Assembly (NCBI GenBank): GCA_016198125.1
Contig: JACQJG010000012.1
Location: 1 to 50,022, forward strand
Reading direction: 5' to 3'
From: Candidatus Iainarchaeum sp.
GTDB taxonomy: Archaea; Iainarchaeota; Iainarchaeia; Iainarchaeales; VGJJ01
DNA length: 50,022 nucleotides
A program made the translations under genes and the position numbers. Numbering within the stretch: position 1 is the stretch's first letter; each line of letters opens with the position of its first letter. The notes beneath the pieces were generated by a model. It searched no databases. It saw nothing but the letters and a program-made list of their open reading frames with translations, and was not told the DNA's origin. Positions 3,703-20,656 of the stretch are shown one piece after another.

Positions 3703-4989
3703 CTAAACGCCGCCCACGCCGCTTTTCGGTTCGGCGCCATCAAGACCTTCCCCCACGGGCATTTCCCCCAACACTTTAATTACAATGTCTAAATCCTTGT
3801 CTGCAAGCAAGTCAAACACGCGCTGCACGTCAAACGCGTTATTAAAACCCGTTTGGGCCAGGTTGCGTTCAAGCAAGGCCATGCCAATCTTTGCAACGCT
3901 TGCACGCTCTTTTTGCAGTTCACGCAGTTCTTCCATGCGATGCTTAAAACTTTCCATGGAAAAGTGCTTGGACAAAGAAAAAAGGGCCTTCTCCGCATAC
4001 TTGTCGCGCAACGATTCAACACTCACATCTGCGGCACTCAAACCAGTTGACAAGGTTCCAGTCAACTTCAAGCGAATAATGGGCTTCAACTCCAGCGGCG
4101 TTTTAAGGTCCTGTCCAATGGCTTCTTCCACTGCCTGCAATACTTCTTCCGCGGACGCGTTTTTGAAGGAAAACTTGTGATAAAACAACCTGCGTTGCAC
4201 GGGAATTTCATGAAAATCCAGCGCGCGCGTTTGCGTGTCATAAATATAGAATCCTTTGGGCTTCTTTGACTCCAAATTCTTTGCCTGGGTTAAAACGGTG
4301 GAACCCACCACCAACAAGCTCCCCCCCTGCGGCAAATCAGTAACAGAAGTCCAATGCAAGTGCCCATCAATGCACAAGTCAAAACCCGATGGCAAGTCCT
4401 TCAAGCCAATGGTGGCCGTCATGTCATCGTCTACCGGCAAAAACTCTTCAATGGACTGATGCAACACCAAAAGATTATGCGCCCCTTTTTGAGGCACCGG
4501 ATTCCATGCAACCAACGCATCCCTTGCATGCTTTTCAGGAACCCCTGAAAGGCCTTGAATAACCACATGCTCTTCCCCTTTTCTCACTTCCACTGAAGAC
4601 GCGTGCAGGCACGCCAAAAAACCCGCAGACTGCAAAACCTGCAACGCGTTCTTGTAATCCCTTCCCCGGTATTCATGCGTGCCTGCAATGGCCACTACAG
4701 GAATGCCGTGGAACAAAAAAGGAGTTGAATGGCCTTCACGCTGATACTGGGTAATTTTAACTTCCGATGCAGGCGCTTTGTAGAACATGGAAAGAATTTC
4801 GAATGCCTCATGCCATGTTTCCTGGAGCGGAATTTTTTCATCAAAAAAGTCCCCGGGGTGCAGTACGAGATCCGGCTGAAGCCGCCCAATCATTTCCGCG
4901 GCCTGCTTGAATTGGGTGAATGCATCGCCCTCGCGTTCAGTGCGGTGCGCAAAACCCAAGTGCGTGTCAGAAACCAGTGCAATCCTCAT
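3703..4989 (-). CDS. mre11: Mre11-like DNA repair exonuclease
   Basis: A 428-residue calcineurin-like phosphoesterase of the Mre11/SbcD type, which processes DNA ends in double-strand-break repair, normally with Rad50. The metal motifs are in order: DTHLGF (about 8-13), GDFFD, GTHEYRG and DGHLH. Motif III is GTHE rather than the common GNHD. I recall this variant from an archaeal subgroup, so it need not be inactive. The C-terminal part is helical and rich in Glu and Arg (MEELRELQKER), where Mre11 contacts Rad50 coiled coils. The ATG at 4989 is chosen because it starts MRIALVSDTHLG and overlaps the upstream HAD stop by 4 nt. No rad50 or herA/nurA gene is in the window. Confidence 0.85.
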   Translation of the reverse strand: MRIALVSDTHLGFAHRTEREGDAFTQFKQAAEMIGRLQPDLVLHPGDFFDEKIPLQETWHEAFEILSMFYKAPASEVKITQYQREGHSTPFLFHGIPVVAIAGTHEYRGRDYKNALQVLQSAGFLACLHASSVEVRKGEEHVVIQGLSGVPEKHARDALVAWNPVPQKGAHNLLVLHQSIEEFLPVDDDMTATIGLKDLPSGFDLCIDGHLHWTSVTDLPQGGSLLVVGSTVLTQAKNLESKKPKGFYIYDTQTRALDFHEIPVQRRLFYHKFSFKNASAEEVLQAVEEAIGQDLKTPLELKPIIRLKLTGTLSTGLSAADVSVESLRDKYAEKALFSLSKHFSMESFKHRMEELRELQKERASVAKIGMALLERNLAQTGFNNAFDVQRVFDLLADKDLDIVIKVLGEMPVGEGLDGAEPKSGVGGV

Positions 4990-5711
4990 AAAACCGACCT
5001 CCGCCTGTTCACGGGCAACAAGTTGGCGTGCAAAAGAAAACGCGGCAGTTCCGCCACAGAATCCAACACCCACTCGTCCCCCAGCCCTTCCTTCAAAAAC
5101 ATTCTCTTAGAGTGAAAACCTGAAAGCACGCCCACAAACTGCAGTCCGGCCCCTCTGGCGGCAAAATAATCAACGGTCAAATCACCTACATAAAGAATCT
5201 CATTGGAACGAATGCGCTTGCGCGAAAAAAACTCTTTAACTTCATCAAATGCGCGCGCATGGGGTTTGTGAAAAATTGTAGACTGCTCGCCAAAAACAAA
5301 CGCGAACACATGCGGATTCAACGCGGTATGCGAAATGCGCTGCACCAAATCCTCTGTAGGCTTATTTGAAACAATCCCCATTGGAATGCGGCGCTCATAC
5401 AAAAAATCAATGGTATCAACGGCCCCGTACACCAAAGGGTAACGCGATTTAAGCCTGAGCGAACGATACGTTCGAATGAATTCATTAATGTCGGCACCCG
5501 GCCAAATGGCTTCAATCATGGAATGCCAGCTCTTCCCCCAATACTTCAAAAACTGCTTCAAAGCCGGTTTGGGCAACCCCAGTTTTCTGGCGGCCCTGCA
5601 ATGACTATTGTAAGAAGTCCACCCACTATGAACCAGGGTGTCGTCAAAATCAAATACAACGGCTTTCACAAACGCCATACGCTTCCCTGCAAAGAATAAA
5701 CGCCAACGCAT
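4986..5711 (-). CDS. HAD-superfamily phosphatase
   Basis: A 241-residue haloacid-dehalogenase-fold hydrolase of the phosphoglycolate-phosphatase-like type. Motif I is VVFDFDDTLVH, with the two aspartates. Motif II is GIVSNKPTEDL, the Lys motif is near HKPHARAFDEV, and motif III is ILYVGDLTVDYFAARGAG. A helical cap lies between motifs I and II. The substrate cannot be read from sequence. It sits in a leftward operon: the start overlaps the upstream ThiI-like stop by one base, and the stop overlaps the Mre11 ATG by 4 nt, so the three are probably translationally coupled. A second ATG (MAFVKAVVF) at 5678 could be the true start. Confidence 0.8.
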   Translation of the reverse strand: MRWRLFFAGKRMAFVKAVVFDFDDTLVHSGWTSYNSHCRAARKLGLPKPALKQFLKYWGKSWHSMIEAIWPGADINEFIRTYRSLRLKSRYPLVYGAVDTIDFLYERRIPMGIVSNKPTEDLVQRISHTALNPHVFAFVFGEQSTIFHKPHARAFDEVKEFFSRKRIRSNEILYVGDLTVDYFAARGAGLQFVGVLSGFHSKRMFLKEGLGDEWVLDSVAELPRFLLHANLLPVNRRRSVL

Positions 5712-6748: not shown

Positions 6749-6819
6749 GCGGGGGTGGCAGAACGGTCATGCACCGGGCTGCAGACCCGGGGAACCGAGT
6801 CCGACTCTCGGCCCCCGCT
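6749..6819 (+). tRNA. tRNA-Cys (GCA)
   Basis: A complete cloverleaf. The acceptor stem GCGGGGG (6749-6755) pairs with CCCCCGC (6812-6818) and the discriminator is U, as expected for cysteine tRNA. The anticodon stem CCGGG/CCCGG encloses loop CTGCAGA with anticodon GCA at 6781-6783. The T stem CCGAG/CTCGG encloses TCCGACT. The D stem has three pairs. There is no intron and no encoded CCA. Its 3' end is duplicated at 11424-11443, marking it as an integration site. Confidence 0.96.
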
Positions 6820-6824
6820 TTATT
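6805..6824 (+). repeat. attL-like tRNA 3'-end repeat, copy A
   Basis: This 20-bp stretch, ctctcggcccccgctttatt, covers the 3' T stem and acceptor strand of tRNA-Cys plus five downstream bases. It recurs exactly at 11424-11443, in the same orientation. Extending left to 6800 keeps 23 of 25 positions. The stop codon of the leftward HAD gene (6820-6822) lies inside it. Confidence 0.85.
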
Positions 6825-7479
6825 CAACAAATGCATCGCGGAGCGAATAAATTTGGAAGTCAGCTTTTTGTAATGGGTCAGATCCATGGTTTCCAACGAG
6901 AACTCCCACGGTGAATATCCCCGCCGCTTTAGCCGATTCGACCCCTCGACGCGTGTCTTCAAATGCAATACAGCTTGATGCGGGCAATCCGTGTTTTTCC
7001 AAACAGCGAATATACGACTCAGGACTTGGTTTATCGTCCGTGTAGTCTTCGCGCGCAATAATGAAATCAAATGAGGATTGAATTCCAACATTTTTCAGGA
7101 CGGTTTCAACAATCGCTCTCGTGCTTCCGGAACAAGTCGAACAACTTACTTTTTGGGACTTGAAATAGTCCAAAATCTCCACAACTCCCTGAAGCGTCGT
7201 ATCAACACGCTGAATGAGACGATGATAAAGTTCCTTGTGTTCCTTGAAAACATCCTTTGCATCCACATGCAAACTCCGGGATTTTAACACCGAGCCGTAA
7301 AAAAGTAAATCGGGAATCTGAAAATAATCCAGCTTTTCTTTGGGGGTTAAGCTAGCACCATATTTCTTTAGAATGGTTTCGCATGTTTTGAGCCCAACCT
7401 CCTCCGTGTCAACAAGAATGCCATCAAAATCAAAGATGGCGGCTTTTATTTTATCGGGGAAGCGCTTGTCTAATTGCAT
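6820..7479 (-). CDS. HAD hydrolase, beta-phosphoglucomutase-like
   Basis: A 219-residue HAD-fold protein of the beta-phosphoglucomutase/phosphatase group. Motif I is IFDFDGILVDTE, motif II is CSGST, the Lys motif is in DDKPSPESY, and motif III is CIAFEDTRRGVESAKAAG. A helical cap fills residues 25-90. The substrate is not deducible. The last codons run into the tRNA-Cys 3' end, so the TAA lies within the att-like repeat. That suggests the gene arrived with the island or acquired this end at integration. It abuts the upstream acetyltransferase with no gap (ATG at 7479, TAG at 7480-7482), so the two are probably cotranscribed. Confidence 0.88.
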   Translation of the reverse strand: MQLDKRFPDKIKAAIFDFDGILVDTEEVGLKTCETILKKYGASLTPKEKLDYFQIPDLLFYGSVLKSRSLHVDAKDVFKEHKELYHRLIQRVDTTLQGVVEILDYFKSQKVSCSTCSGSTRAIVETVLKNVGIQSSFDFIIAREDYTDDKPSPESYIRCLEKHGLPASSCIAFEDTRRGVESAKAAGIFTVGVLVGNHGSDPLQKADFQIYSLRDAFVE

Positions 7480-8124
7480 CTATTGAACCTTCTTTGTTTG
7501 TTTATTTTTAAGATAGGACTTTATTGCAGTCGCGTTATTGTGGTCGATAATGTACGCAAAGTGCCTCTCATCTCGCCATACTTTTACCGATTTTAGGTCC
7601 ACGTTTTGGGCGGCTGGATTAACGCCTAAAGGAATTCTCAGCATGCCAATATCTTCAAACCCTTGTGATTGATATAACCGCTCAGCGCGATAATTCCGAG
7701 GTGCAAAAGTAAGTTCAATTGCGTTCACTCCTATTTCACGTGCCTGTTTTTGAAGAAAATTCACACCTATTCGACCCAACCCCTTCCTCTGAAAATCATT
7801 GGCAATGCAAATACCCAGCGTAGGAATTTTGATATTTTTTCCATCCAAAAAATGGGGTTGCGTCACACTCCAAAGGGCCATATGCCCAATTGGAGTTCCA
7901 GAAGGGGTGAATAATAGGTAAGACAAATCTTTCCCTGCTTCAGAACTTAGAATCGCATCCTTAAAATCTTGAATTTGGGCATCTGCCCCCCATTTATATG
8001 GAGCAAATAATTCACGAGTGTCCGCGCTTAAACTATTGGCTAACTGGACAAGGTTTTTTTCGTCTCCATGAGCAAGTAATCGAATTTGGACCGACCCAAT
8101 AGAAGAGGGTAAAATGAACGGCAT
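7480..8124 (-). CDS. GNAT-family N-acetyltransferase
   Basis: A 214-residue GCN5-related acetyltransferase. The acetyl-CoA signature is visible as LGICIANDFQRKGLGRIGVNFLQ (about 105-127, Q/RxxGxG/A type), followed by NAIELTFAPRNYRAERLYQSQGFEDIG, the usual strand-helix of motif B. The C terminus carries a further 45 residues with WRDERHFAYIID, seen in RimJ-like members. It may acetylate a protein N terminus or a small molecule; nothing in the context decides this. It is the upstream member of a two-gene leftward unit with the HAD hydrolase. Confidence 0.85.
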   Translation of the reverse strand: MPFILPSSIGSVQIRLLAHGDEKNLVQLANSLSADTRELFAPYKWGADAQIQDFKDAILSSEAGKDLSYLLFTPSGTPIGHMALWSVTQPHFLDGKNIKIPTLGICIANDFQRKGLGRIGVNFLQKQAREIGVNAIELTFAPRNYRAERLYQSQGFEDIGMLRIPLGVNPAAQNVDLKSVKVWRDERHFAYIIDHNNATAIKSYLKNKQTKKVQ

Positions 8125-8210
8125 AGAACGAATATACGCTGCCCTTTAGTCTTAAATTTGTATAGTACATAACACCTAACAGTCCAGAAAGTGCCGCGCT
8201 TCAACACGAA

Positions 8211-8468
8211 TCAAATCCGCTTGTAAATCGTGCTGCGATGTCCCACCACGCGAACCCAAATAATGCCTGGATTCCGCTCAACATCCACAATAGCGCGGTA
8301 GTCTCCAACCCTGATTTTATGACCATATTCTTTATCATTGATAGATTCTATTCCGCGACCAGTTTGAGCCACATCACCCAATTTCCGAACAATGCGCGCC
8401 GCAATATCCTTTGGAAGCTTATCTAATTGCTTCTCCGCTTTGGGATCGTAGCGAACCTCATAGGTCAT
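8211..8468 (-). CDS. relE: RelE/ParE family toxin
   Basis: An 85-residue RelE-superfamily toxin. It has the typical order MTYEVRYDPKAEKQLDKLP (strand 1 and helix 1), RIVRKLGD, then the central sheet HKIRVGDYRAIVDVE and the C-terminal strand VRVVGHRSTIYKR. RelE-type proteins cleave mRNA on the ribosome, using basic residues like those here. The start codon overlaps the antitoxin stop by 4 nt (8465-8468), a standard coupled toxin-antitoxin layout with the antitoxin first. Confidence 0.9.
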   Translation of the reverse strand: MTYEVRYDPKAEKQLDKLPKDIAARIVRKLGDVAQTGRGIESINDKEYGHKIRVGDYRAIVDVERNPGIIWVRVVGHRSTIYKRI

Positions 8469-8659
8469 AGAAATTTCTTTTCCATTTCCTTTTGAGACTT
8501 AAACTCAGAATGAGCACGATTACGGGATTCTTTTATCTGGGCTTTTGTTTCATCGTTTAATTCAAATTGTGCTTCTTCAAAAAGCTCCTTGAATTCGTGC
8601 AACTCTTTTTGAATCGCATCCACTTTGCTGCTTATTTGTTTCAATTCGGTTTCAGACAT
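8465..8659 (-). CDS. RelE-associated antitoxin
   Basis: A 64-residue, mostly helical, charged protein (MSETELKQISSKVDAIQKELHEFKELF) just upstream of and overlapping the RelE toxin gene. Heptad-like spacing suggests a coiled-coil dimer, with the C-terminal tail (EFKSQKEMEKKFL) likely to wrap the toxin. The ATG at 8659 is chosen because a TATA box (8682-8691) lies about 25-30 nt upstream, fitting a leaderless start. A TTG at 8677 would add six residues. Confidence 0.8.
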   Translation of the reverse strand: MSETELKQISSKVDAIQKELHEFKELFEEAQFELNDETKAQIKESRNRAHSEFKSQKEMEKKFL

Positions 8660-8681
8660 ACTACTATAGGGATTCAACGAC

Positions 8682-8691
8682 TATATAAAAA
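8682..8691 (-). promoter_or_regulatory. TATA box of the RelE antitoxin-toxin operon
   Basis: On the minus strand the sequence reads TTTTATATAG, centred about 27 nt before the ATG at 8659. This is the normal distance for an archaeal leaderless transcript. Confidence 0.6.
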
Positions 8692-8762
8692 TAACCAAGA
8701 AAAACCGCCAAAAGAAGCTTAAACTGCCAACTCTTTGCTTGAAAAAACCCGTGACAAGGTGA

Positions 8763-8978
8763 TTACACCTCAACGACTTGCAATCCTACAAAACGAGTGG
8801 AAGAAACCTCATTTTTATTCTCGCGTTCCAAGCACAACTCAATAACTTCTTTTATTCGTTTCAATAATTCATCCATGGTTTTAGCCTGGGTATAGCATCC
8901 TTCCAACTCAGGCACTTCTCCCACGAGCCAGCCCTCTTCGTCTTCTTCAATTACCATTGTAAACATCCGCTTGGCCAT
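8763..8978 (-). CDS. hicB: HicB-like antitoxin, apparently orphan
   Basis: A 71-residue HicB/UPF0150-type protein: FTMVIEEDEEGWLVGEVPELEGCYTQAKTMDELLKRIKEVIELCLE is the canonical partial RNase-H-like fold of HicB antitoxins. The ATG at 8978 is chosen because AAAGGTGAAAAG, a good Shine-Dalgarno sequence, immediately precedes it; the longer frame to 9008 would bury that site. HicB normally neutralises the HicA mRNA interferase, but no HicA-like frame lies on either side. It may act on a distant HicA or be a relic of the island's gene flux. Confidence 0.85.
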   Translation of the reverse strand: MAKRMFTMVIEEDEEGWLVGEVPELEGCYTQAKTMDELLKRIKEVIELCLERENKNEVSSTRFVGLQVVEV

Positions 8979-9118
8979 CTTTTCACCTTTCATGACAAAT
9001 AGGGACAATTACAGAATAAAACCTTATCTTAGGGAAAACGCCAAAAGGTTTAATTACCAAAGAAAGATAATGGGGTTAACATTTGGAATTAACGCTCTTC
9101 AACACGTAGTTATAGGAA

Positions 9119-9130
9119 CGGCCCCCGCTT
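9119..9130 (+). repeat. partial tRNA-Cys 3'-end repeat, copy B
   Basis: cggcccccgctt is identical to 6809-6820 and 11428-11439. It lies in a non-coding, AT-rich stretch (9009-9213) between divergent genes, so its GC-rich run stands out. It is 2310 bp from copy A and 2309 bp from copy C. At only 12 bp it could be chance. Confidence 0.5.
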
Positions 9131-9213
9131 AGAACTCACAGTTGAAACGCAGTTAAATAGAGAATTAAAACTCAACTTCTGCTATTTTAAGTCAGTTGAT
9201 TCTTTTGATCGAC

Positions 9214-10083
9214 ATGCTTATCCCAAAACCCCCAAAAAATAAGATCCAATCAATTGTTGAAGGCAGCTTGGGCAGTAAGGTATTGGCCATTCAAGATGTT
9301 TCTAAAGGTTTTGACCATCATGTCTACAAGGTCAAGACTTCTAAAAAAACCGTAATTTTTCGTTTTCCAAAAAGAAAAGAATATGTTTCCCGATTGAAAG
9401 TTCATGAATGGGTTAATGCTGAATGGATTAAGCGCGGAATAAAGGTTCCTCAAACGCTTTTTAGAGGATCTAATTACCTTATTGAAACATTTATTGAGGG
9501 AAAGCCTCTTCATAAAGTTAAATTAACTAAAAAAAACAAAAAAAGGTTACTTATTCAAGTTGGCAAATGCCTAAAAAAAATGCATAAATTAAAATGTAAA
9601 AATTATGGCGAAATCATTCATGTAAACCGAGCCAAAAACAATTCATGGAGAGCTTACCTGAAAGGCGAGGTTCAAGATTTTTTATCACGTATAAAAAAGA
9701 ATAAGAGGCTCAAAGGCAAGGAGATCACTGAACTAAAACGGTGGTTTGACAAATCGCCAAAATTTATCAAAAGAGCCAGCGTTCTCCATGCCGATATTAA
9801 ATTAGAACACATTTTAGTAAAGAACAGAAAACTTGCAGGAATTATCGACGCCTCGGATACAAGCGCTGGCGACCCCATGCTCGACTTTGCTGACTTTTAT
9901 ATCAAGTATCCTAAACAAGAAGTTCAACATGTTTTAGAGGGATACGGAAGCCATGATATGAAAAAGATTCAATATTACGCTGCACTCATTCTGCTAAGAC
10001 GAATCGCTTACCATCCCGACAGCCAAGAAAAAAGAAGGAAAAAATTATTTCAAATAACACAAATACCCTACCAGAATATTTAA
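9214..10083 (+). CDS. aminoglycoside-phosphotransferase-fold kinase
   Basis: A 289-residue APH/choline-kinase-fold protein. It has the N-lobe nucleotide site (GFDHHVYKVKTSKKTVIFRFP), a hinge (YLIETFIEGKPLHKV), the catalytic Brenner motif LHADIKLEHILV with Asp, and the metal motif GIIDASDTSAGDPMLDFAD. Such kinases phosphorylate small molecules, including antibiotics, sugars or nucleosides; the substrate is unknown. The gene is very lysine- and AT-rich compared with the host genes, supporting acquisition. The ATG at 9214 is preferred over the TTG at 9196 because residues upstream add nothing to the fold. Confidence 0.85.
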   Translation: MLIPKPPKNKIQSIVEGSLGSKVLAIQDVSKGFDHHVYKVKTSKKTVIFRFPKRKEYVSRLKVHEWVNAEWIKRGIKVPQTLFRGSNYLIETFIEGKPLHKVKLTKKNKKRLLIQVGKCLKKMHKLKCKNYGEIIHVNRAKNNSWRAYLKGEVQDFLSRIKKNKRLKGKEITELKRWFDKSPKFIKRASVLHADIKLEHILVKNRKLAGIIDASDTSAGDPMLDFADFYIKYPKQEVQHVLEGYGSHDMKKIQYYAALILLRRIAYHPDSQEKRRKKLFQITQIPYQNI

Positions 10084-10102
10084 GATGAACCATAGTTATC
10101 TT

Positions 10103-10112
10103 TTTATATAAC
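10103..10112 (+). promoter_or_regulatory. TATA box of the AbiE-like operon
   Basis: TTTATATAAC lies 20-29 nt before the ATG at 10132, the usual spacing for an archaeal leaderless start. It would drive both AbiEii- and AbiEi-like genes. Confidence 0.6.
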
Positions 10113-10131
10113 TTTGGTTTATTTATTCATT

Positions 10132-10779
10132 ATGCAGATTCCTTTGCAGGTTCGGCTCAAACGGCAATTTCAGCGCGATGTGGCCCAGTTGCAGGACTTG
10201 CTTGTGGAAACCACTTATGCATTGGCTCCAAAAGCCGTTATGCACGGGGGGACAGCGATCTGGAGATGCTTCCATGGAAACCGGTTCTCAGAAGACGTGG
10301 ATTTTTATCTCCCACCCCCACCAGCGTTTCAGGAGGCATTTGCCGCACACCTGGAAAATGTCAATGCGCACGTAACCAGATTCAGAAAAACACCTAATTC
10401 CATTTACGCTAAAATAACCCGGGATCGCACCACTGTTTCGTTTGAAGCCGCGCTCCGAAAATTCAATAATCCTGTTGTTTCCGACTACGAAAAAGCAGAT
10501 GGGACCCGAATAGCGGTATTGACGCCATCACCGGAAGTATTATTGAAGGAAAAGCTCAATGCATTCCAAAACAGAAAACTAATCCGTGATATTTATGATG
10601 TATACCACCTCAGCGGAAACATAAACATTTCAGGTGAAGAACGCCGGCTCATTTTCGGCCAATTGGAAACGTTACCCCGCCCTGTGGACGAATCCAACCT
10701 CAAAAATATTGTTTTAACCGGGGCAATCCCCGCATTTGAACAAATGAAACAGACGCTCAAAAAAAGGTTTTCGCCTTGA
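10132..10779 (+). CDS. abiEii: AbiEii-family nucleotidyltransferase toxin
   Basis: A 215-residue nucleotidyltransferase of the AbiEii/type IV toxin family. The signature is GGTAIWRCFHGNRFSEDVDFYL, with GG/S and DxD-type residues, followed by the lysine motif PEVLLKEKLNAFQNRKLIRDIYDVYHL. Related toxins act by adding nucleotides, for example to tRNA acceptor ends, and cause abortive infection when the antitoxin fails. It is followed at once by its probable antitoxin; the two share the tetranucleotide TTGA (10776-10779), so translation is coupled. The toxin-first order is the reverse of the usual abiEi-abiEii arrangement. Confidence 0.87.
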   Translation: MQIPLQVRLKRQFQRDVAQLQDLLVETTYALAPKAVMHGGTAIWRCFHGNRFSEDVDFYLPPPPAFQEAFAAHLENVNAHVTRFRKTPNSIYAKITRDRTTVSFEAALRKFNNPVVSDYEKADGTRIAVLTPSPEVLLKEKLNAFQNRKLIRDIYDVYHLSGNINISGEERRLIFGQLETLPRPVDESNLKNIVLTGAIPAFEQMKQTLKKRFSP

Positions 10780-11378
10780 TTCAAACCAAAGAAGTGCTCA
10801 AGCAATTCAAGGACTGGCCGGTCTTCACCATTCGGGATGTACGAATGAAATTGGGAAAGAAAAACACGAGCAAATATGTCAAGGTACTGCTTCACGATTT
10901 AGTCACAAAAGGAGAAGTAAAACGAATCCGAAAAGGGCATTACACCCTGCAAGAAGATTCTATCGTAAGCGGATTCGCATTCGCACCCTTCTATTACGGC
11001 CTCCATTTCGCCTTAACCCACTATGGACTGTGGACCCAATCAAGCAATTTGGTCATTATCACTCCAAACCACGTGCGAACCGGCGTACGAGACATCATGG
11101 GGACCAATGTGGTCGTGCGACGCATCCAACCAAAGCAATTTTACGGGTATGAAACCGTGCAAAATGGAAATCATTGGATTCCAGTTTCCACAGTCGAAAA
11201 AACAATTATTGACTTTGTTTACTTTCATCAAAAAATACCTGAAGAAGCAAAGAAAAACATGTTCCGGGCAATCAATCCAAAAAAATTACACGCACAACTC
11301 ATCAAATCCCCAAAATGGGTTCAACTGCGAATCAAACAAATGATTCCAACTAAAAAGCAGGCTACTGTGGAGAGTTGA
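10776..11378 (+). CDS. abiEi: AbiEi-like antitoxin
   Basis: A 200-residue protein with an N-terminal winged helix (FTIRDVRMKLGKKNTSKYVKVLLHDLVTKGEVKRIRKGHYTL, about 17-58) and the AbiEi C-terminal domain (GFAFAPFYYGLHFALTHYGLW, then VVVRRIQPKQFYGYE and VSTVEKTIIDFVYF). AbiEi antitoxins repress their own promoter and suppress the nucleotidyltransferase. Translation seems to start at TTG 10776 inside the toxin stop region, because no other start gives the full winged helix. The stop lies about 45 nt before att copy C. Confidence 0.87.
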   Translation: MIQTKEVLKQFKDWPVFTIRDVRMKLGKKNTSKYVKVLLHDLVTKGEVKRIRKGHYTLQEDSIVSGFAFAPFYYGLHFALTHYGLWTQSSNLVIITPNHVRTGVRDIMGTNVVVRRIQPKQFYGYETVQNGNHWIPVSTVEKTIIDFVYFHQKIPEEAKKNMFRAINPKKLHAQLIKSPKWVQLRIKQMIPTKKQATVES

Positions 11379-11423
11379 CCGAGAACACAGGAACCCTACA
11401 CTGAGTTGGGAAGTAGAATTCGG

Positions 11424-11443
11424 CTCTCGGCCCCCGCTTTATT
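11424..11443 (+). repeat. attR-like tRNA 3'-end repeat, copy C
   Basis: An exact 20-bp copy of 6805-6824 without an attached tRNA. The five bases to its left (ttcgg) still resemble the tRNA T-loop (tccga). The corrected reading frame of the leftward RelE-like pseudogene ends at a TAA (11439-11441) inside this repeat, at the same repeat position as the HAD stop in copy A. Confidence 0.85.
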
Positions 11444-11692
11444 GCTCATCCTTGTGATACAAATCAAGGAAAATAACCGTATCCTCATTTTTCAGATAGG
11501 CATAGGACACAAACGAAACGGGGAAACATACAATTCACGCTGTGTCCCCTTTCGCGCAAAACGCATGGGTTTGCCGATTTCAGGGTTTTCAATGATTTTC
11601 TGCATCTGCTTCTTAACACGTATTTTTAGACTTTCATCTTTAATCTTGCGCAGGATCTTCCCGAAGAGAGGATCAAAGACAACACTTACCAT
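11439..11692 (-). pseudogene. frameshifted RelE-like toxin
   Basis: The first 61 residues (MVSVVFDPLFGKILRKIKD to RELYVSPFRL) are a normal RelE-type toxin. The frame then reads CPMPI and stops at 11492. In the next frame, from about 11505, the expected ending appears: SYAYLKNEDTVIFLDLYHKDEQ, stopping at 11439. A single 1- or 2-nt indel near 11505-11511 restores an 83-residue toxin of family length. It is either a real inactivating mutation or an assembly error. The start overlaps its antitoxin by 7 nt. Confidence 0.8.
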
Positions 11693-11904
11693 TCTTCCAA
11701 GTCCTTCAAGAATTCATTCTTGCTTTTTTTGACAAATTTTCCTTCGTCGTACCTCTTCCAGGCTTTGGCAACTCGTTGATTAGCTTCCAACCCAGCAACA
11801 TCGCCTTTTCCCCGATCTTTCCTCAACTCCTTCAGAATTTCTTCCATCGAAATTGGATTATTTTTATCGGCCAAAAATCCGTGCAAAGAATTTCGCTTTT
11901 TCAT
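11686..11904 (-). CDS. RelB-like antitoxin
   Basis: A 72-residue charged protein between the frameshifted RelE and the VapC gene. It starts MKKRNSLHGFLADKNNPISM and ends KFVKKSKNEFLKDLEEW, the type of tail that covers RelE toxins. Its N-terminal 28 residues match the C-terminal end of the VapB-like protein at 12274 (LAD, PISM, EILK, LR in the same order). Its ATG overlaps the VapC stop by 4 nt (11901-11904), so the two toxin-antitoxin units probably form one transcript. Confidence 0.75.
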   Translation of the reverse strand: MKKRNSLHGFLADKNNPISMEEILKELRKDRGKGDVAGLEANQRVAKAWKRYDEGKFVKKSKNEFLKDLEEW

Positions 11905-12287
11905 ATGATTATCACTTGCACTTTTGACAGTCCCCTGAAGTCATTATCCGCGGTAATTAAAATGGATTCCGATGAGCGCGCGGACTGATAAATGATGCTG
12001 TCCGCGATGGCGAGCTTGTTTTTGATGGCCCATTCGACCGATTGGCCGGCAATTTCTTCATCGACTTTAATTATGGTGCTATTTTCCCGCATGAAGCGAA
12101 TAGCTTCCTTGATGAATGCCTCATTTCGGCTCAGCATATGTAACTTTCGTGGAACTTCATAAAAGGATAGTGCGGAGGTGAAAACTTTCCCCTCGTGGGA
12201 ATCGACCATTTGACCAAGCAATTCCGCGGCACGCATGAAGTAACCCACCCAAATACTGGAATCAAGAAACAACTTATAGTCGGTCAT
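11901..12287 (-). CDS. vapC: VapC-type PIN-domain toxin
   Basis: A 128-residue PIN-domain RNase. The acidic residues are in place: LFLDSSIWVGYF (first Asp), SALSFYEVPRKL (Glu), AIADSIIYQSARSS (Asp) and ILITADNDFRGL (Asp). VapC toxins cleave tRNA or rRNA. It overlaps the upstream VapB-like antitoxin gene by 14 nt and the downstream RelB-like gene by 4 nt. Intact length and motifs suggest an active toxin. Confidence 0.9.
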   Translation of the reverse strand: MTDYKLFLDSSIWVGYFMRAAELLGQMVDSHEGKVFTSALSFYEVPRKLHMLSRNEAFIKEAIRFMRENSTIIKVDEEIAGQSVEWAIKNKLAIADSIIYQSARSSESILITADNDFRGLSKVQVIII

Positions 12288-12495
12288 GCTTATCCCGCAA
12301 CCCTTTTAGGATTTCCTTCATCGAAATGGGTTTGCCCTCATCCGCAAGCGCCCCATACATGGATTTTGATTTTTTTTGAATGAGTTTGTTGATGACTTGA
12401 TCATAGGTTTTCACACTATATACCTCCTTGAGCGAGTCTAATAGTTTCTTTGTATCCTGTTGAACTTGAATGGTCGTAGTGCCCACACTCAACAC
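12274..12495 (-). CDS. vapB: VapB-like antitoxin
   Basis: A 73-residue antitoxin with an N-terminal ribbon-helix-helix-like strand (TTTIQVQQDTKKLLDSLKEVYSVKTYDQVINKLIQ) and a C-terminal toxin-binding tail (MYGALADEGKPISMKEILKGLRDKH). The start is uncertain: GTG at 12495 or GTG at 12486; the latter gives MGTTTIQV, closer to the family. The tail module reappears at the N terminus of the RelB-like antitoxin two genes downstream. Confidence 0.8.
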   Translation of the reverse strand: MLSVGTTTIQVQQDTKKLLDSLKEVYSVKTYDQVINKLIQKKSKSMYGALADEGKPISMKEILKGLRDKHDRL

Positions 12496-12564: not shown

Positions 12565-13182
12565 ATGCTTATGTCTGGAGGATTGGAGACAGGCTTGTTT
12601 AATGCAATTATTGCCCTGACTGAATTGAAGAGACGGAAACGCGCGGGCTGGGTCAAGCGCGGAGTAAAGAACGCGGAAAGCGTTGCTGACCACTCATGGA
12701 GAAGCGGGCTCCTGGGCTACATGCTTGCGCCTAAAGGATACGACAAGGACAAAATCCTCAAAATGGGCTTGATCCACGATGCCACAGAAATATTTGGCGA
12801 AGACACGACTCCCGTAGACGGCCTTACAAAAGAAGAAAAGGAAAAAAGGGAACGCGAGGCCGTGGAAAAATTCTTTCAACTATTACCGGATAGTACACAA
12901 AAAGAGTTTCGTGCGCTGTGGGAAGAATTCGAAGCGCGCAAAACAAAGGAAGCCGAGTTCATGAAACAGGTTGAAATCCTTGAAATGCTTTTTCAGGCCT
13001 ACGAATATGAAACCGCCAAAAACTTCAGAGAAGACTTAACGGAGTGGCTGGAATACGAGCGCACCAACAGAAAAATGATTCAACACCCCGTACTCAAAGC
13101 ATACTTTGAAGAAATCGACAAACGCTGGCCAAAGGAAGCCAAAAAGAAATTCGATTTAAGAAAGTACAAGTATTACTATTGA
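12565..13182 (+). CDS. HD-domain nucleotidase-like phosphohydrolase
   Basis: A 205-residue HD-fold metal hydrolase of the YfbR/HDDC2 5'-deoxynucleotidase type. The metal ligands are visible: SVADHSWRSGLLGYML (first His), GLIHDATEIFGEDTTP (HD pair plus the conserved E and D) and a later Asp-containing helix (FREDLTEWLEYE). Such enzymes dephosphorylate dNMPs and help balance nucleotide pools. A TATA-like TTTTAAA lies at about 12539-12546. The ATG at 12565 or at 12571 may be the start. Confidence 0.85.
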   Translation: MLMSGGLETGLFNAIIALTELKRRKRAGWVKRGVKNAESVADHSWRSGLLGYMLAPKGYDKDKILKMGLIHDATEIFGEDTTPVDGLTKEEKEKREREAVEKFFQLLPDSTQKEFRALWEEFEARKTKEAEFMKQVEILEMLFQAYEYETAKNFREDLTEWLEYERTNRKMIQHPVLKAYFEEIDKRWPKEAKKKFDLRKYKYYY

Positions 13183-13213
13183 AGTTTGACCCTGCGTTGC
13201 ACAAGCCACTTGC

Positions 13214-13222
13214 TTTTATATT
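13214..13222 (+). promoter_or_regulatory. TATA box before the kinase-fold gene
   Basis: TTTTATATT lies 21-29 nt before the ATG at 13243, fitting a leaderless transcript. Confidence 0.55.
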
Positions 13223-13242
13223 AACACTTACATTCTTGAAAC

Positions 13243-13944
13243 ATGGCGCGCCCAGTCAAACCAAAGACCCCTCGGGGCGCAGTGGCCTCAGGGTGGCACC
13301 GTGCTGTGTACAAGCACGGCCAGTCCCTTGTAAAAAAACCTTTTGACTATTACACGGCACGCTTTTTGGCAATGAATATTCGCCTGCCCATGTCCATCCG
13401 CGCATTAAAGCGCTATGGCGTTAAAGACATGAACCTTGCAGAGTGGAACCATTACCAGCGTTACTTCAAACACCTACCTGCAAACATGAGGCCCTACTTT
13501 GCACGACTCACCCGGCTGGCGTACACTACCCGTGGAAAGAAGAAAAGAAGCTGGTTGTATGTGGAGCCTGTCTTGAATGCCAATGGCGAGCTTTCGCAAA
13601 CCATGGCCGACCATGTAAAACAACATGGAAGAATACACGACCCTGCATTCTGGGACCGTTTTAGCAGCATGGTAAAATGGATGCTTCAACAAAAAATTCC
13701 TTTCTTTGACTTTAACGCGCATAACATCGTGGTTCAACGCCACATCCCCAGAAAATGGGTGCCAGTAATGGTAGATTACAAGAGCGCCTCCCTCCGGCCT
13801 TATTGGGTCCACGTGTGGTTGCGCAACCCAAAGATTCGTGCACAAAGAATGATTCGATTGGCCAATCGCACCATTCGAGTAATGGGAGGGGCGCATTATT
13901 GCTTGAAACTCTCAAAAAATGCAGAAAACGAACGCCCCCGCTAA
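13243..13944 (+). CDS. YrbL-like kinase-fold protein
   Basis: A 233-residue basic protein that looks like the YrbL (PhoP-network) branch of the protein-kinase fold. The recognisable part is YVEPVLNANGELSQTMADHV (hinge), DPAFWDRFSSMVKWMLQQKIPFFDFNAHNIVV (catalytic-loop region with D and N) and VPVMVDYKSASL (metal-binding Asp). A glycine-rich loop is not obvious. The N terminus is rich in Lys, Arg and Pro (MARPVKPKTPRGAVASG). The function is unknown; family membership is a moderate-confidence pattern match. Confidence 0.6.
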   Translation: MARPVKPKTPRGAVASGWHRAVYKHGQSLVKKPFDYYTARFLAMNIRLPMSIRALKRYGVKDMNLAEWNHYQRYFKHLPANMRPYFARLTRLAYTTRGKKKRSWLYVEPVLNANGELSQTMADHVKQHGRIHDPAFWDRFSSMVKWMLQQKIPFFDFNAHNIVVQRHIPRKWVPVMVDYKSASLRPYWVHVWLRNPKIRAQRMIRLANRTIRVMGGAHYCLKLSKNAENERPR

Positions 13945-14049
13945 TTCATTAAAACCGGCAATAAACGAAAAACACGCCCAATTCAACATAACGTTTAAGA
14001 GCCTGCCCTGCCATATATACATAAGCCCGTGTGGGTGGGGGGGAGAAAA

Positions 14050-14412
14050 ATGAAGCATACACGCACAATGGTAGTGGGAGTTGCATTACTTGCAGCCTTG
14101 GCAGTCTTGCTTGCACTGATTGGAAATGCCATTGGAAACGAGCAAAACTTTATCGCAAAAGTACGCAACCCATTGGAATTATTGAAAACATCGAACAATC
14201 AAGGGTACATGACTGCGGTATGCCCGGAAAACATGGTGCCGGTAAATTGCGGGTACACCCTTAAAACAGGCAAAACCATTCGCTTGCTGCGCGTGGAACC
14301 CCAGTACACTGAAACAGGCGATTCATTCAACGGGTGCATCATGGAATGGGATGTGACTGGAAACAAGGCCAACGTTCAAAACCAGGTCACCGCCTATTGC
14401 AAGGCCCCGTAA
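14050..14412 (+). CDS. small secreted four-cysteine protein
   Basis: A 120-residue protein with an N-terminal membrane segment (MVVGVALLAALAVLLALIGNAIG) and an extracytoplasmic domain of about 70 residues with four cysteines: C-x8-CG, then NGC, then YC near the end. The same pattern, with identical first spacing and matching RLLRVEPQYT/GD/NGC landmarks, ends the FN3 protein at 17311. The ATG at 14050 follows GGGGGAGAAAA, a plausible ribosome site. The family is unknown; disulfide bonds are likely. It opens a run of four envelope or secreted proteins. Confidence 0.75.
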   Translation: MKHTRTMVVGVALLAALAVLLALIGNAIGNEQNFIAKVRNPLELLKTSNNQGYMTAVCPENMVPVNCGYTLKTGKTIRLLRVEPQYTETGDSFNGCIMEWDVTGNKANVQNQVTAYCKAP

Positions 14413-14456
14413 AAAGAATGCGTGGAAAGGGATTGGAATAACTCCTTCAAGGAATA

Positions 14457-14468
14457 GTTTATAAATGG
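14457..14468 (+). promoter_or_regulatory. TATA box of the metalloprotease gene
   Basis: AGTTTATAAATG lies about 25 nt before the GTG at 14487. This spacing supports that GTG as a leaderless start rather than the TTG at 14478. Confidence 0.6.
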
Positions 14469-14486
14469 ACGATTAATTTGTACTAT

Positions 14487-17204
14487 GTGCGCTCAATCCC
14501 CCCGCCCTTCTTATTCACGGTTGCCGTTATAATTACGTTCATCCTCGCATTCGCAATCGGGTTTTTTCCAAGTGGAAATGTGATTCAAAAGGACGTGCAA
14601 CCCATTGATAATCCAACGACACAAACAGGCAAAACGGGCCTCGATGGAAAAGAAAACGCGACATTGATTCCCGCGGAAGAAGACGAACCCAATTATTTGG
14701 AATTGGCAGGGGATGCCCGCTCTTTAGAGACTCAAAAAAAGTATTTGAGCCTGCACATCGCAGAAATAGAAAGTATCACAGATCCAACGGATAAATTCGA
14801 GGCCATCGAACTTTTTTACCAGTCCAAACCCTTTTTTTCGACCGAACTTCAAGACTATTTTCCCGAAGAAGTAACGGGGGCTGACAAAGTAGTCATCCGG
14901 CATGAACATAACCTGAGAAACGAATTAAGTTATTCCATCCGCGCAACAGTATACCCCGATAACCACCCCCCAGGATTTGCTGTGCACTTTTCGGGAGACC
15001 CTAACGCGACTGACTTCATCAATGAAAAACTCATTGAAAGCCCCGGGTATATTTTCAATGGCCACGCATTCATTAATTTGGAAGAACCAGTTGATCCTAT
15101 TCCATCCTCCGCATCCAAAAACGAAATGAAAGCGACTTCGTATGAAAAAAATGTAATCATCTTGGCCCCGCTCAGGGCATCATTTGCCCCCATGGAGACT
15201 TCACCTTACAATCAGAAAGCAAGAAAGGTCATCGTGATGGTCCCATATACCAATGAGTACCCCCTCCCATCGAATTATGCAAGTGTGGTGAATGAGTTGA
15301 TGACCAACAGTCACTCGTATTTTCTAAGCAACTCTGAAAATAAACTGGATATTGATTTTGATTTGGTTTCAGTAAAAGTAAATCCCGGTATGGCAGATCC
15401 AACGCTCTCATATGTGGATACTATTGGAATCATTCAAATGGCCGACCCACAAGTAAATTATACCCCGTATGATTTTATTGCCATGGCCATCCCATCCATC
15501 AACAACTGGGGAGGATTCGCTACCTCATACCCCCATTCATTCGATTTTGGCACGAACGAACCGGTAAACGGTGCGATCGCAACTACCCATCTGGACTTCT
15601 CCGACCCCCAGATTGAATACTCCAAAAAAATCTTTAATCATGAACTCGGACACGTGCTGTCCTATTGGAATCCTGCTTCCTTCAATGCCCCTTACTTAAC
15701 TAAAAACGTGCCCCATGCCTCCTCATCATCGGATATATCCCAAGGCTATTGTCAAATCGAGGAAGACAAAATCATTTGCTTCGTGTCAGAATATGGAAAC
15801 CTGTACGATACCATGGGATATGGGTACGGGCTCTTTAATCATCACAGCGCAGTCTACCGGGCAGGTCTGCGCGAATCATCCCGCGTTCAGAAGATAACCC
15901 AAAGTGGGGAATACGAATTGTGCCCCATTCAGGAAAATCCGGAAGCTGGAGACCCGTGTGCACAAGAACTATTTATTGAGAACAAAAATGGAATGAACGT
16001 GGGAGTGGAATTTCGCATCCCTACCGGACCGGATGCATACCCCACAAATGGCATGGGATGCCCTTCCTCCGTTTTTGATGGAATCCTCATTTATGCCACT
16101 GATTGGGAGGAAGGAGACTCATTTGGAGCTGCAACCTACCCGCATTCCGGAGCTGGCGGGGATGTCCTGATTCAAGCGCAGGATACAATCGAAACGTGCA
16201 GTAGCGGGCAGGGATTTCCCCTGTTTCCACTGCCTGTTGGAAAAACATTTTCCTCACCCGGAGGGGATATCACACTGAAATCGATTACTTTTACAGGGCC
16301 CCTTGCCAAGCCCCGAGCCCATGTTACAATCGATTACCAAACCGACAACTGCGAAAGCCCGCTGTACCACCCCCTTGTAACGGAATCAATTGTTTTTTGC
16401 GGAGAAAAATTTGACCTTCCGCAAGGAATCGTGGTGAAACCCCAAGATGGAAAACCCCTCAATATCGTGTGCAATGGAACCACTTTTGAAGGAACCGATG
16501 CAATCGAGAATACCGGAATTACAGTAGACGCGTCAAATGGAACAGGAGATGTTACCATTACGGGGTGCCAATTCCAAATCTATTCTACAGGCATATCGGT
16601 CCAAGGAAAAACAAGTATTACCATCAAAAACAATCAATTCCAAAATATATTAGAAGACGGAATAAGCGTGGATTTCCCCCAAAAGGATTCGACGAAAAAA
16701 GTGGTGATAAAAAACAATACCCTTTCAGTTAATTCCATTGGGGTACAACTAAAAAATACGAACAAAGCAGCCATTTATAACAACACCATTGAGACCAAAA
16801 AAACAGGAATTGTCGTTTTACAGTCAAACAAAGTAAAGGTATATGACAATACGGTGACCGCTCTGATTGACAAAACGCAGGAAGGGGTCACGCTCGAGAA
16901 ATCAAAAGATGGAAAATTGTATTCCAACAAAATCGAAGGATTTGAAACGCTGGTGCACGCGCTTGCGGGGAGCACGGGATGGAAAATATATTACAATAAC
17001 TTCATTCATGCAGGCGAAGAGGGCAGCGTGCTCGATGAAAACCAGAAACAAAACAGGTGGTATAACAAGAATGTCAAAAAAGGAAACTATTGGTCCCCCT
17101 TTTCATGCACGGATAATAAGCCCCCGGCTGGCATTTGCGAAAACAAAAAAAGCATTAACGGGGCGGCTAAAGACAAATACCCAGTGGCCAAACCATTTCC
17201 TTAG
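14487..17204 (+). CDS. secreted metalloprotease with C-terminal beta-helix
   Basis: A protein of about 905 residues. Residues 5-28 form a signal anchor (FLFTVAVIITFILAFAIGFF). Residues 35-240 are of unknown fold. Residues 245-560 contain a zinc-protease-like domain with NHELGHVLSYWN (about 384-395) and a downstream YDTMGYGYG that looks like a Met-turn. The C-terminal 270 residues are a NosD-like right-handed parallel beta-helix with repeated INN/IYNN/VYDN turns (ITIKNNQFQN, KVVIKNNTLS, AAIYNNTIET, KVYDNTVTA), which often binds glycans. The third zinc ligand, His in metzincins, would be Asn here. It likely sits outside the membrane and cleaves proteins or remodels the surface. Confidence 0.8.
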   Translation: MRSIPPPFLFTVAVIITFILAFAIGFFPSGNVIQKDVQPIDNPTTQTGKTGLDGKENATLIPAEEDEPNYLELAGDARSLETQKKYLSLHIAEIESITDPTDKFEAIELFYQSKPFFSTELQDYFPEEVTGADKVVIRHEHNLRNELSYSIRATVYPDNHPPGFAVHFSGDPNATDFINEKLIESPGYIFNGHAFINLEEPVDPIPSSASKNEMKATSYEKNVIILAPLRASFAPMETSPYNQKARKVIVMVPYTNEYPLPSNYASVVNELMTNSHSYFLSNSENKLDIDFDLVSVKVNPGMADPTLSYVDTIGIIQMADPQVNYTPYDFIAMAIPSINNWGGFATSYPHSFDFGTNEPVNGAIATTHLDFSDPQIEYSKKIFNHELGHVLSYWNPASFNAPYLTKNVPHASSSSDISQGYCQIEEDKIICFVSEYGNLYDTMGYGYGLFNHHSAVYRAGLRESSRVQKITQSGEYELCPIQENPEAGDPCAQELFIENKNGMNVGVEFRIPTGPDAYPTNGMGCPSSVFDGILIYATDWEEGDSFGAATYPHSGAGGDVLIQAQDTIETCSSGQGFPLFPLPVGKTFSSPGGDITLKSITFTGPLAKPRAHVTIDYQTDNCESPLYHPLVTESIVFCGEKFDLPQGIVVKPQDGKPLNIVCNGTTFEGTDAIENTGITVDASNGTGDVTITGCQFQIYSTGISVQGKTSITIKNNQFQNILEDGISVDFPQKDSTKKVVIKNNTLSVNSIGVQLKNTNKAAIYNNTIETKKTGIVVLQSNKVKVYDNTVTALIDKTQEGVTLEKSKDGKLYSNKIEGFETLVHALAGSTGWKIYYNNFIHAGEEGSVLDENQKQNRWYNKNVKKGNYWSPFSCTDNKPPAGICENKKSINGAAKDKYPVAKPFP

Positions 17205-17310
17205 AACCTTCAGTTACCCCACGGCTATGGCGAACTTTCAATAGGAATGTATTTACCCGAATGCGAAACAGCCCCAACCATTAAATATCTCTTTTGCCAT
17301 TAAGCTAGGC

Positions 17311-18702
17311 ATGGCATTGCACGCGCAAAAACCCGTTCCATTCAAATTGCTTGCAGGGTTCATGCTTACTGCGCTCCTTGCCTTTTTCCTGGGCGTGGCG
17401 TATGTAAATGCACAGGCCGGAGGAGTAAGCGATGTTTTCCATTCGTACTTTGACCCCGCTGGCAAACAAGAGCTTTTAGGGGTTACTCCCACGTGCAGCA
17501 CTGCCGTTGCAAACGGTTTGGCAGGAGCAACGGACTGCACCACTGCAACTTCCGGCGGGGCAACCAGCACGCTCACAAATTTTACGGGAATATCTCCTGA
17601 AAACATTGCACCTTATGCGGCAGTAGCCAATTACGCGTTGAATGCCCCGGGCGCAGGAGGCTTGGACACCGTAAAACCAGATGACGTAACTTCCATTAAC
17701 ACCAGTCCAGGGGCTGTCCCTGGAACTGTAAACCTCGCCTGGGACAATACCCAGCACCTCAACGATTCCACCATGGACCACTTCACTATTTTGTATGCCG
17801 ACAATCCCATTGACAATTCAAATTACACCAGCGCCACGGTTGCAGGCATTACTGCAACAAGCGCCAACACTTTTATTGTTAACGGTTTAGTGCCAGGGGA
17901 CTTCAAGTTTTTCACTGTACAAGCCATTGACAAAGCAGGAAACGTTTCAGACATTGTTGAAAGCCCTTTTGAACAAAGCGCAACCACTTCAGGAGGCGGA
18001 ACAGACACCAATCCCCCAGAAGCGCCTGCATTTGAATTAAGCCCTGTCGCGAACATGACCGATGGACCTGGAGGAATGCGCGTTCTTGTCAAAACCCCTG
18101 GCACTCCAGATGCAACCCTTAGCCATTACAATGTGTACGCGTCCGCCAGCTCTTTTATACCAGGCGGAGTGCCTGCAGGCATTTCAAGCGGCACCATTAA
18201 ACTCCTTGCCACGCTCTCTGCCACGCAAAACGGGATTACAGTTCCAGAATACGCTTCAGGACCCGTACGCTCGTATCAAATTGGAGGGTTAACACCCAGC
18301 ACAACGTTTTACTTTATCGTTGAAGCAGTGGACGGGGCCGGCAACAAAACGCTTGCAGGCAGTGTAAAGTCCGCGGTCACTGGAAAACTGCCTTCAGGAT
18401 CCATGACCTTTGCCCAACCCGGAGAACAATTCGTGTTATGCCAGCCCAGCGGGTGTTCAGGCACGCAAAGCGGGGTCAGTGCAAGCAATTCCCTTCAGGT
18501 TTCCTGCAGCGCAGGCCAAACCCCGCTTAGTTGCGGAGGCCTTGTGGATGCGGGCAGCGGTTCGGTAAGAAAAATCGAATACAAGCCTTTGTACACGCAA
18601 AGCCCGCCCGGAGACGCCATTAACGGGTGCAGGCTCAGCTGGACAACCTCTGGAACCGTCCCCCAAGTGGCTGTTTACGCGGTATGCATGAAAACCGCTT
18701 AA
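17311..18702 (+). CDS. secreted double-FN3 protein with four-cysteine module
   Basis: A 463-residue surface protein. A signal anchor lies at 12-34 (LLAGFMLTALLAFFLGVAYVNAQ). Two fibronectin type III domains follow: about 125-225 (VNLAWDNTQHLNDSTMDHFTILY to FFTVQAIDKAGNVS) and about 235-360 (LSHYNVYAS to FYFIVEAVDGAGNK). The last 90 residues repeat the C-x8-CG...NGC...VC module of the protein at 14050, with an extra LCQPSGC pair before it. A TATA-like TTAAATAT (17281-17288) is 27 nt upstream of the ATG. The role is probably adhesion or surface assembly. Confidence 0.8.
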   Translation: MALHAQKPVPFKLLAGFMLTALLAFFLGVAYVNAQAGGVSDVFHSYFDPAGKQELLGVTPTCSTAVANGLAGATDCTTATSGGATSTLTNFTGISPENIAPYAAVANYALNAPGAGGLDTVKPDDVTSINTSPGAVPGTVNLAWDNTQHLNDSTMDHFTILYADNPIDNSNYTSATVAGITATSANTFIVNGLVPGDFKFFTVQAIDKAGNVSDIVESPFEQSATTSGGGTDTNPPEAPAFELSPVANMTDGPGGMRVLVKTPGTPDATLSHYNVYASASSFIPGGVPAGISSGTIKLLATLSATQNGITVPEYASGPVRSYQIGGLTPSTTFYFIVEAVDGAGNKTLAGSVKSAVTGKLPSGSMTFAQPGEQFVLCQPSGCSGTQSGVSASNSLQVSCSAGQTPLSCGGLVDAGSGSVRKIEYKPLYTQSPPGDAINGCRLSWTTSGTVPQVAVYAVCMKTA

Positions 18703-18782
18703 AAAACTCCGTGCACATTTTTAACGGCATTCCCTACAACAACGACAATAAACTTAAATAGTAAAATCATGTAATTAACCTC

Positions 18783-20360: not shown

Positions 20361-20435
20361 AATAACGCAATCCCAACATCACACGCAGGGACTGTACAAC
20401 AGTTAATAAACTGCACCCTGCACGTTTACCTTTAA

Positions 20436-20608
20436 GGGGCGGTGGTGTAACCTGGTTAGCATTGCAGCTTCGGGACCCGCTTGCGTGCGGGTGTGACGCG
20501 TACGGTCGCAGGGTCTGCGACCCTGCACGGGCCAACAGGCCCTGCTTTTCACACTCTCATTTTTGGGCGAACGAGTTGCAGGTTGGGGTTCAAATCCCTG
20601 CTGCCCCA
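20436..20608 (+). tRNA. tRNA-Pro (CGG) with intron
   Basis: Exon 1 is 20436-20474 and exon 2 is 20574-20608. The acceptor stem GGGGCGG pairs with CTGCCCC, the anticodon stem GCAGC with GTTGC (20575-20579), the anticodon is CGG (20471-20473), the T-loop is TTCAAAT, and the discriminator is A. The intron interrupts the canonical 37/38 position. Splicing at a perfect bulge-helix-bulge supports the boundaries. Confidence 0.95.
20475..20573 (+). other. 99-nt archaeal tRNA intron with bulge-helix-bulge
   Basis: The splice motif is complete. TTCG (positions 32-35) pairs with CGAA near the intron 3' end, flanked by 3-nt bulges GG|A and CG|A that contain the cut sites, and CCC (20476-20478) pairs with GGG (20565-20567). 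The interior can fold into three hairpins: CCCGC/GCGGG, GGTCGCAG/CTGCGACC and GGGCC/GGCCC. No open frame is evident. Confidence 0.9.
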
Positions 20609-20656
20609 TACACAGTTTATTCTGGGTGCTGCGAGCCCATTGCGTAGGCGAAAAAA

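Follow-up and report, generated by a model that had tools for sequence, protein, structure and literature searches.

The tRNA-Cys gene (GCA; 6749-6819, plus strand, as located by ARAGORN) of the Candidatus Iainarchaeum sp. genome studied here is followed by a block of genes that its relatives do not carry at this place, and the question raised by the locus is whether this block constitutes one integrated element or the remains of several that entered the same tRNA gene. An earlier note on the window (i.e., the whole stretch of 50,022 bp that was analysed) had described it as a single accessory island, integrated at the 3' end of tRNA-Cys and bounded by one pair of direct repeats.

Throughout the order, tRNA-Cys is situated between a block of ThiI/THUMP and Mre11-like genes and the genes of L16/L10e, and the neighbouring ThiI/THUMP and L16/L10e genes of the relatives agree with the identification of the gene in the window. 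The distance from tRNA-Cys to L16 amounts to 57-1983 bp at the measured loci of relatives, compared to 14.3 kb in the window. L16 adjoins tRNA-Cys in other families, and in a genome of the same family (G001) an antitoxin ORF and a reductase gene alone separate the two; L16/L10e is the ancestral neighbour of tRNA-Cys. In the comparison called for in the earlier note, 17 relatives, all of other genera, carry none of the cargo of the island at their tRNA-Cys, save weak HAD matches (26-27%) in two of them. One of these matches (L068) sits between the THUMP and the Mre11-like genes, where the window possesses another HAD gene (4986-5711). A CRISPR array suspected by eye behind the tRNA-Cys of one genome (G019) was not supported.

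The tRNA-Cys is left intact and represents the integration target (attB/attL side), the direct repeat taking in its 3' end as had been proposed. The exact 20-mer CTCTCGGCCCCCGCTTTATT is found at 6805-6824 and at 11424-11443 (identity 20/20, both on the plus strand), and these are its sole copies in the assembly of 845,833 bp even if up to two mismatches are allowed, such that it is not a sequence repeated many times in the genome. The similarity extends to 25/28 (6797-6824 compared to 11416-11443), the second copy resembling the 3' half of tRNA-Cys. Within both copies lies a core of 12 bases, CGGCCCCCGCTT, which corresponds to the 3' end of tRNA-Cys plus one base; it is situated at 6809-6820 at the left end of the array and at 11428-11439 at its right end.

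Concerning the genes between these repeats, all families of mobile-type cargo named in the earlier note were recovered. Directly at the left repeat, a HAD hydrolase (6820-7479; Pfam HAD_2, 1e-32), whose stop codon (6820-6822) falls within the first repeat copy, and a GNAT acetyltransferase (7480-8124; Acetyltransf_1, 8.8e-11) form a first module on the minus strand (6820-8124). The second module (8211-9008), also on the minus strand, comprises a toxin of the ParE/RelE superfamily (8211-8468; Pfam ParE_toxin, 1.4e-7), a probable antitoxin (8465-8677), called from its position as it has no family match, and a HicB-like antitoxin (8763-9008; HicB_lk_antitox, 1.1e-6), beside which the ORF list contains no HicA, such that HicB is an orphan. 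The third module (9196-11378, plus strand) consists of an APH-fold kinase (9196-10083; Pfam APH, 2.8e-20), AbiEii (10114-10779; 7.7e-18) and AbiEi (10776-11378), the latter under the Pfam cut-off and clear by PADLOC (6.5e-22). The AbiE pair is patchily distributed, with AbiEii matches in 30 of the 75 genomes of the order, and at eleven loci checked in the order no attachment site flanks it. Beyond the array follow, on the minus strand (11492-12495), a ParE-like pair and a PIN/VapB-like pair.

No integrase or transfer gene is found among the island ORFs with Pfam or PADLOC, and at an assembly completeness of 71% no integrase was found in or beside the array; the single Zn-ribbon tyrosine recombinase of the assembly is situated on another contig (C20), away from the island. 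The lack of an integrase noted before is thereby borne out, and the same applies to the AT-richness seen by eye. The composition of the island is foreign: its GC content is 0.412, compared to 0.484 +/- 0.009 in controls of equal length taken outside 6.8-21.1 kb, and its tetranucleotide L1 distance of 0.322 exceeds that of all controls (0.147 +/- 0.032, maximum 0.247).

What is not supported is the view of one island bounded by a single repeat pair, as at least two relics of attachment sites are found in its interior, which makes it a composite of about three modules. A third core, in the same orientation as the outer two, is situated at 9119-9130. The 12-mer occurs four times in the 846 kb of the assembly, with three copies in the island and the fourth within an unrelated gene, and it was absent from all 2000 sequences obtained by first-order Markov shuffling of the island. 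Around the third core, an imperfect palindrome of 63 bp (9091-9153, plus strand) forms a two-armed attachment site, in which an arm' at 9091-9103 is followed by 15 bp, the core, 10 bp, and an arm at 9141-9153. Its profile score at 9091 is 35, compared to at most 25 in 10 shuffles, and, being palindromic, the site is matched on both strands. A second, decayed site (about 8148-8222, plus strand) has retained its left flank and the arm' (8193-8205, GCCGCGCTTCAAC), whereas its core is mostly deleted, as seen in the alignment to intact sites. The intact and the decayed site split the island into the about three modules described above. The distances between successive cores are nearly equal (2310 and 2309 bp); a duplication was considered for this reason, but the two halves encode unrelated families and the spacing is taken as coincidence.

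Sites of the same organization are found in a genome of a sister genus within the same family (G002), whose proteins common to this locus are about 50-59% identical to those of the window. There, tRNA-Cys with a core and right arm is followed by two two-armed sites, a tyrosine recombinase of 436 aa, and the genes of TerS and TerL (PHROG, E 3.5e-20 and 4.5e-46); this element is a provirus that reaches the contig end (C2). The recombinase matches PF00589 and PHROG integrases and, weakly, a C-terminal Zn ribbon, and its gene is one unsplit open frame adjoining the site. The attachment region at this tRNA-Cys contains three core-arm units at steps of 79 bp. On a further contig (C8), a two-armed site (8692-8754) is followed by a SET-domain gene, a second two-armed site (9402-9464), one gene, a site with only the left arm (about 10239-10325), and then by VapBC, HD and L16, neighbouring sites being spaced by 0.7-0.9 kb and enclosing a gene in each case. 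The PIN, VapB and next HD genes behind the array of the window have their orthologues behind this last site. When the two contigs are read as continuous where C2 ends and C8 begins, as we infer from flanking synteny, only the right arm is found at tRNA-Cys, both arms at the junctions, and only the left arm at the far end. In every two-armed site, that at 9091-9153 of the window included, the spacing is exactly arm', 15 bp, core, 10 bp, arm.

An HMM built on the three C8 sites alone detects both internal sites of the window (9089-9157, E 1.8e-17; 8148-8210, E 2.1e-5), its remaining matches being the tRNA-Cys sites of G002 and of a further genome (G003) only, and positions 9069-9179 align over 112 bp with the junction of tRNA-Cys and integrase in G002 (E 2.8e-7). 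In G003, an arm at identical spacing from tRNA-Cys (10/13) is followed by genes of a T4SS pilin and PrgI. The same arm at the same spacing (10/13) is also found at the tRNA-Gly(CCC) of G002. A tRNA-Gly 3' fragment in that genome adjoins another integrase, which shares 48% identity with the first, and carries the arm at this spacing (11/13) with a different core. For comparison, the background per position is 7e-4 for arm scores of at least 10 and 9e-5 for scores of at least 11; beside integrases from other families of the order, no arms above background were found. In these sequences, the arms go with the integrase type and the cores with the tRNA, and one integrase type together with its arms would have brought both a virus and a conjugative-type element to tRNA-Cys in this family. 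The same type is likely to have been the agent in the window too.

A search for the fixed-spacing site covered 87 genomes belonging to the phylum and used the core in one run and the arms alone in another, with reversed patterns as controls. It is found once in the genome of the window, at 9091-9153, four times in G002 and in none of the others, and the reversed patterns gave no match in the 87 genomes. Among viral contigs, neither the site nor the G002 integrase had a match. Five matches of the pattern on genome contigs of unrelated bacteria are taken as chance.

The reading that we prefer, with a probability of roughly 0.78, is that of a site-specific accretion array at tRNA-Cys, composed of elements of one integrase type, most of them now without an integrase, and similar to the elements termed CIMEs. 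Elements bearing the 63-bp palindrome as attP (arm' RCCGCRCTTCAAC, 15 bp, core CGGCCCCCGCTT, 10 bp, arm GTTRAARYGCGGT) would enter serially at the 3' end of tRNA-Cys, where the bare core serves as attB, and the tRNA would be restored each time. The enzyme is likely to be a tyrosine integrase of virus or ICE type, which binds the arms and exchanges the strands within the core. In lambda-type integration, attB likewise is a bare core and attP a core flanked by arm-type sites; in the present sites, however, one symmetric pair of 13-bp arms lies 10 and 15 bp off the core, where lambda-type attP has several arm sites at a distance. With both arms in attP and none in attB, serial insertion leaves the right arm at the tRNA, both arms at the junctions and the left arm at the far end, i.e., the arrangement seen in G002. 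In the window, about three short modules would be left, namely HAD-GNAT, the ParE pair with HicB, and APH-AbiEii-AbiEi. Here, both arms are found at 9091-9153 and the left arm at 8148-8222, whereas the outer copies are without clear arms: by the repeat at 6805-6824, the right arm at its predicted place is matched at only 3/13 positions (8/13 with a shift of 1), and by the repeat at 11416-11443 the left arm at only 7/13. These outer copies may be decayed or, as convincing arms are lacking, the outermost pair may stem from a different element type. The modules are best described as CIME-like remnants or passengers, which, if they move at all, would depend on a trans-acting integrase. The sequences themselves show the sites with their fixed spacing and their confinement to this locus, the foreign composition, and, in G002, the one-sided arms at the array ends and the integrase and terminase genes next to them; the order in which the modules entered, the action of this integrase type on the sites and any mobility today are inferred.

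The outer pair is the best-kept repeat (20/20), which would also fit a single integrative element (6820-11439) that was inserted once and lost its integrase, the internal cores being leftovers of its attP, a region of several repeats that rearrangement within the element would have scattered. The three core-arm units at 79-bp steps within one region of G002 indeed indicate that repeats need not mean separate insertions. The C8 sites of that genome, however, are 0.7-0.9 kb apart with intervening genes, and the last of them has the left arm only, as separate insertions predict; moreover, the outer copies in the window lack the arms that the internal copies possess, unlike the own ends of one element. 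We consider a single insertion distinctly unlikely on these grounds. Modules of one to three genes (two of them single-gene in G002) with a palindromic site between them and no integrase inside might alternatively recall integron cassettes, i.e., small circles with a palindromic site, caught by a trans-acting integrase, with tRNA-Cys as their constant point of entry. Yet single-strand folding of five sites is poor, unlike that of attC (z 0 to -2.0), the core is a tRNA end, the adjoining enzyme in G002 has its matches among ordinary Zn-ribbon phage integrases, and no cassette turned up in a second place or as a circle, so that such an origin is very improbable. Even less credible is a chance occurrence of an ordinary dispersed repeat or of a regulator-binding palindrome, for which the imperfect palindromy and the matches on both strands might speak: the sequence is confined to the tRNA-Cys locus in 87 genomes, its centre is the 3' end of tRNA-Cys, and the arms are found again at tRNA-Gly, next to a different integrase.

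A variant of the accretion reading would see in the array a tRNA-anchored cassette system, in which integrase-less cassettes of one to three genes with 63-bp sites are caught serially through the integrase of a resident virus acting in trans. This is unlikely; if true, an integron-like function would have arisen from a viral attP and a tRNA.

Among known systems, CIMEs are the closest kind. These are decayed elements which have kept attL and attR and which stack with incoming elements at the 3' end of a tRNA gene (PMC5704250); the same source, after Pavlovic 2004 and Bellanger 2011, describes tandem accretion of ICEs, IMEs and CIMEs in bacteria. The modules of the window equally lack genes for integration and transfer, have kept the att cores (beginning at 6809, 9119 and 11428) and follow one another at the 3' end of a tRNA gene. 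An integrase-bearing element beside such sites is seen in G002, not in the window's own genome. The modules differ from CIMEs in their archaeal host, in a size of down to one gene (G002), in the two-armed palindromes of 63 bp and in the tailed-virus-type provirus that represents the integrase-bearing element at this site in G002. In Thaumarchaeota, elements with a tyrosine recombinase reside in tRNA genes, and repeated use of a single site gives rise to arrays of them, according to the text of PMC6563490. There, the elements are recognised by their integrase, which the modules of the window lack, and paired arms of fixed spacing are not among the features described in that text. Archaeal integrons and CALINs, whose attC sites act as folded single strands (PMC9668308), share with the window the tandem modules of short genes, the palindromic sites between them and the frequent absence of a nearby integrase, but the core of the present sites corresponds to the 3' end of a tRNA, the folding is weak, and the enzyme in G002 resembles an ordinary phage-type integrase. 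The likeness to SSV and pNOB suggested by the earlier note could not be upheld: no fragment of an SSV-type split integrase is found among the island ORFs with family matches, and the internal sites have paired arms, which in G002 lie beside an unsplit Zn-ribbon tyrosine recombinase. Accretion at tRNA genes as such is already known in bacteria and archaea, whereas a two-armed palindromic site dividing single-gene modules is a new form of it.

The locus links defence and toxin-antitoxin modules without an integrase to a site that goes with a viral type of integrase, and this site can serve as a compact query in the search for accretion arrays next to further tRNA genes. If the modules move in trans, this would be one route by which archaea with very small genomes acquire defence genes one at a time. 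The anatomy of the attachment site (core, two arms, fixed spacing) is described at sequence level for a poorly sampled archaeal lineage. Besides L16/L10e, the genes of eRF1 and of diphthamide synthesis are present, an archaeal gene set.

Immediately behind the tRNA-Cys gene of the sister-genus genome G002, and ahead of the tyrosine integrase of the provirus joined to it, three units of the 12-bp core (the tRNA-Cys 3' end sequence) plus the 13-bp arm repeat follow each other in 79-bp steps (L056, 12130-12321); the two alternatives are that elements have collapsed here or that the attP is itself repeated. In G003, another relative, a 10/13 arm comes after tRNA-Cys, with genes for T4SS pilin and PrgI behind it (L057, 1-3617); this is probably a conjugative-type element integrated at the same tRNA. 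Arm and spacing identical in kind to the tRNA-Cys sites are also found in G002 at tRNA-Gly(CCC) (L165, 1450-1560) and at a tRNA-Gly 3' fragment (L104, 2640-2720); tRNA-Gly is likely a second accretion site.

Within the array of the window, the cores at 6809, 9119, and 11428 are separated by 2310 and 2309 bp. These near-equal intervals are regarded as coincidence, since the halves on either side of the middle core are unrelated in gene content. In the same-family genome G001, an antitoxin ORF resembling that at window 11686-11904 lies immediately behind tRNA-Cys (L055, 10203-10421), so that the adjacency of a toxin-antitoxin gene to the tRNA may predate the formation of the array. The additional genes between VapBC and L16 (window 12565-21106), including those for a 908-aa beta-helix/NosD-like protein, an fn3 protein, and a subtilase, are unmatched at the relatives' tRNA-Cys loci and possibly constitute a separate insertion.

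One phage-type tyrosine recombinase is encoded elsewhere in the genome holding the window, on another contig (C20, 3563-4687; L054, L097); no tRNA was found near it, and it shares 28% identity with the provirus integrase of G002. At four further loci of relatives (L042, L045, L046, and L048 in G023, G016, G004, and G025), where ARAGORN with the settings used called no tRNA-Cys, this gene is apparently interrupted by intron-like sequence just 3' of the anticodon.
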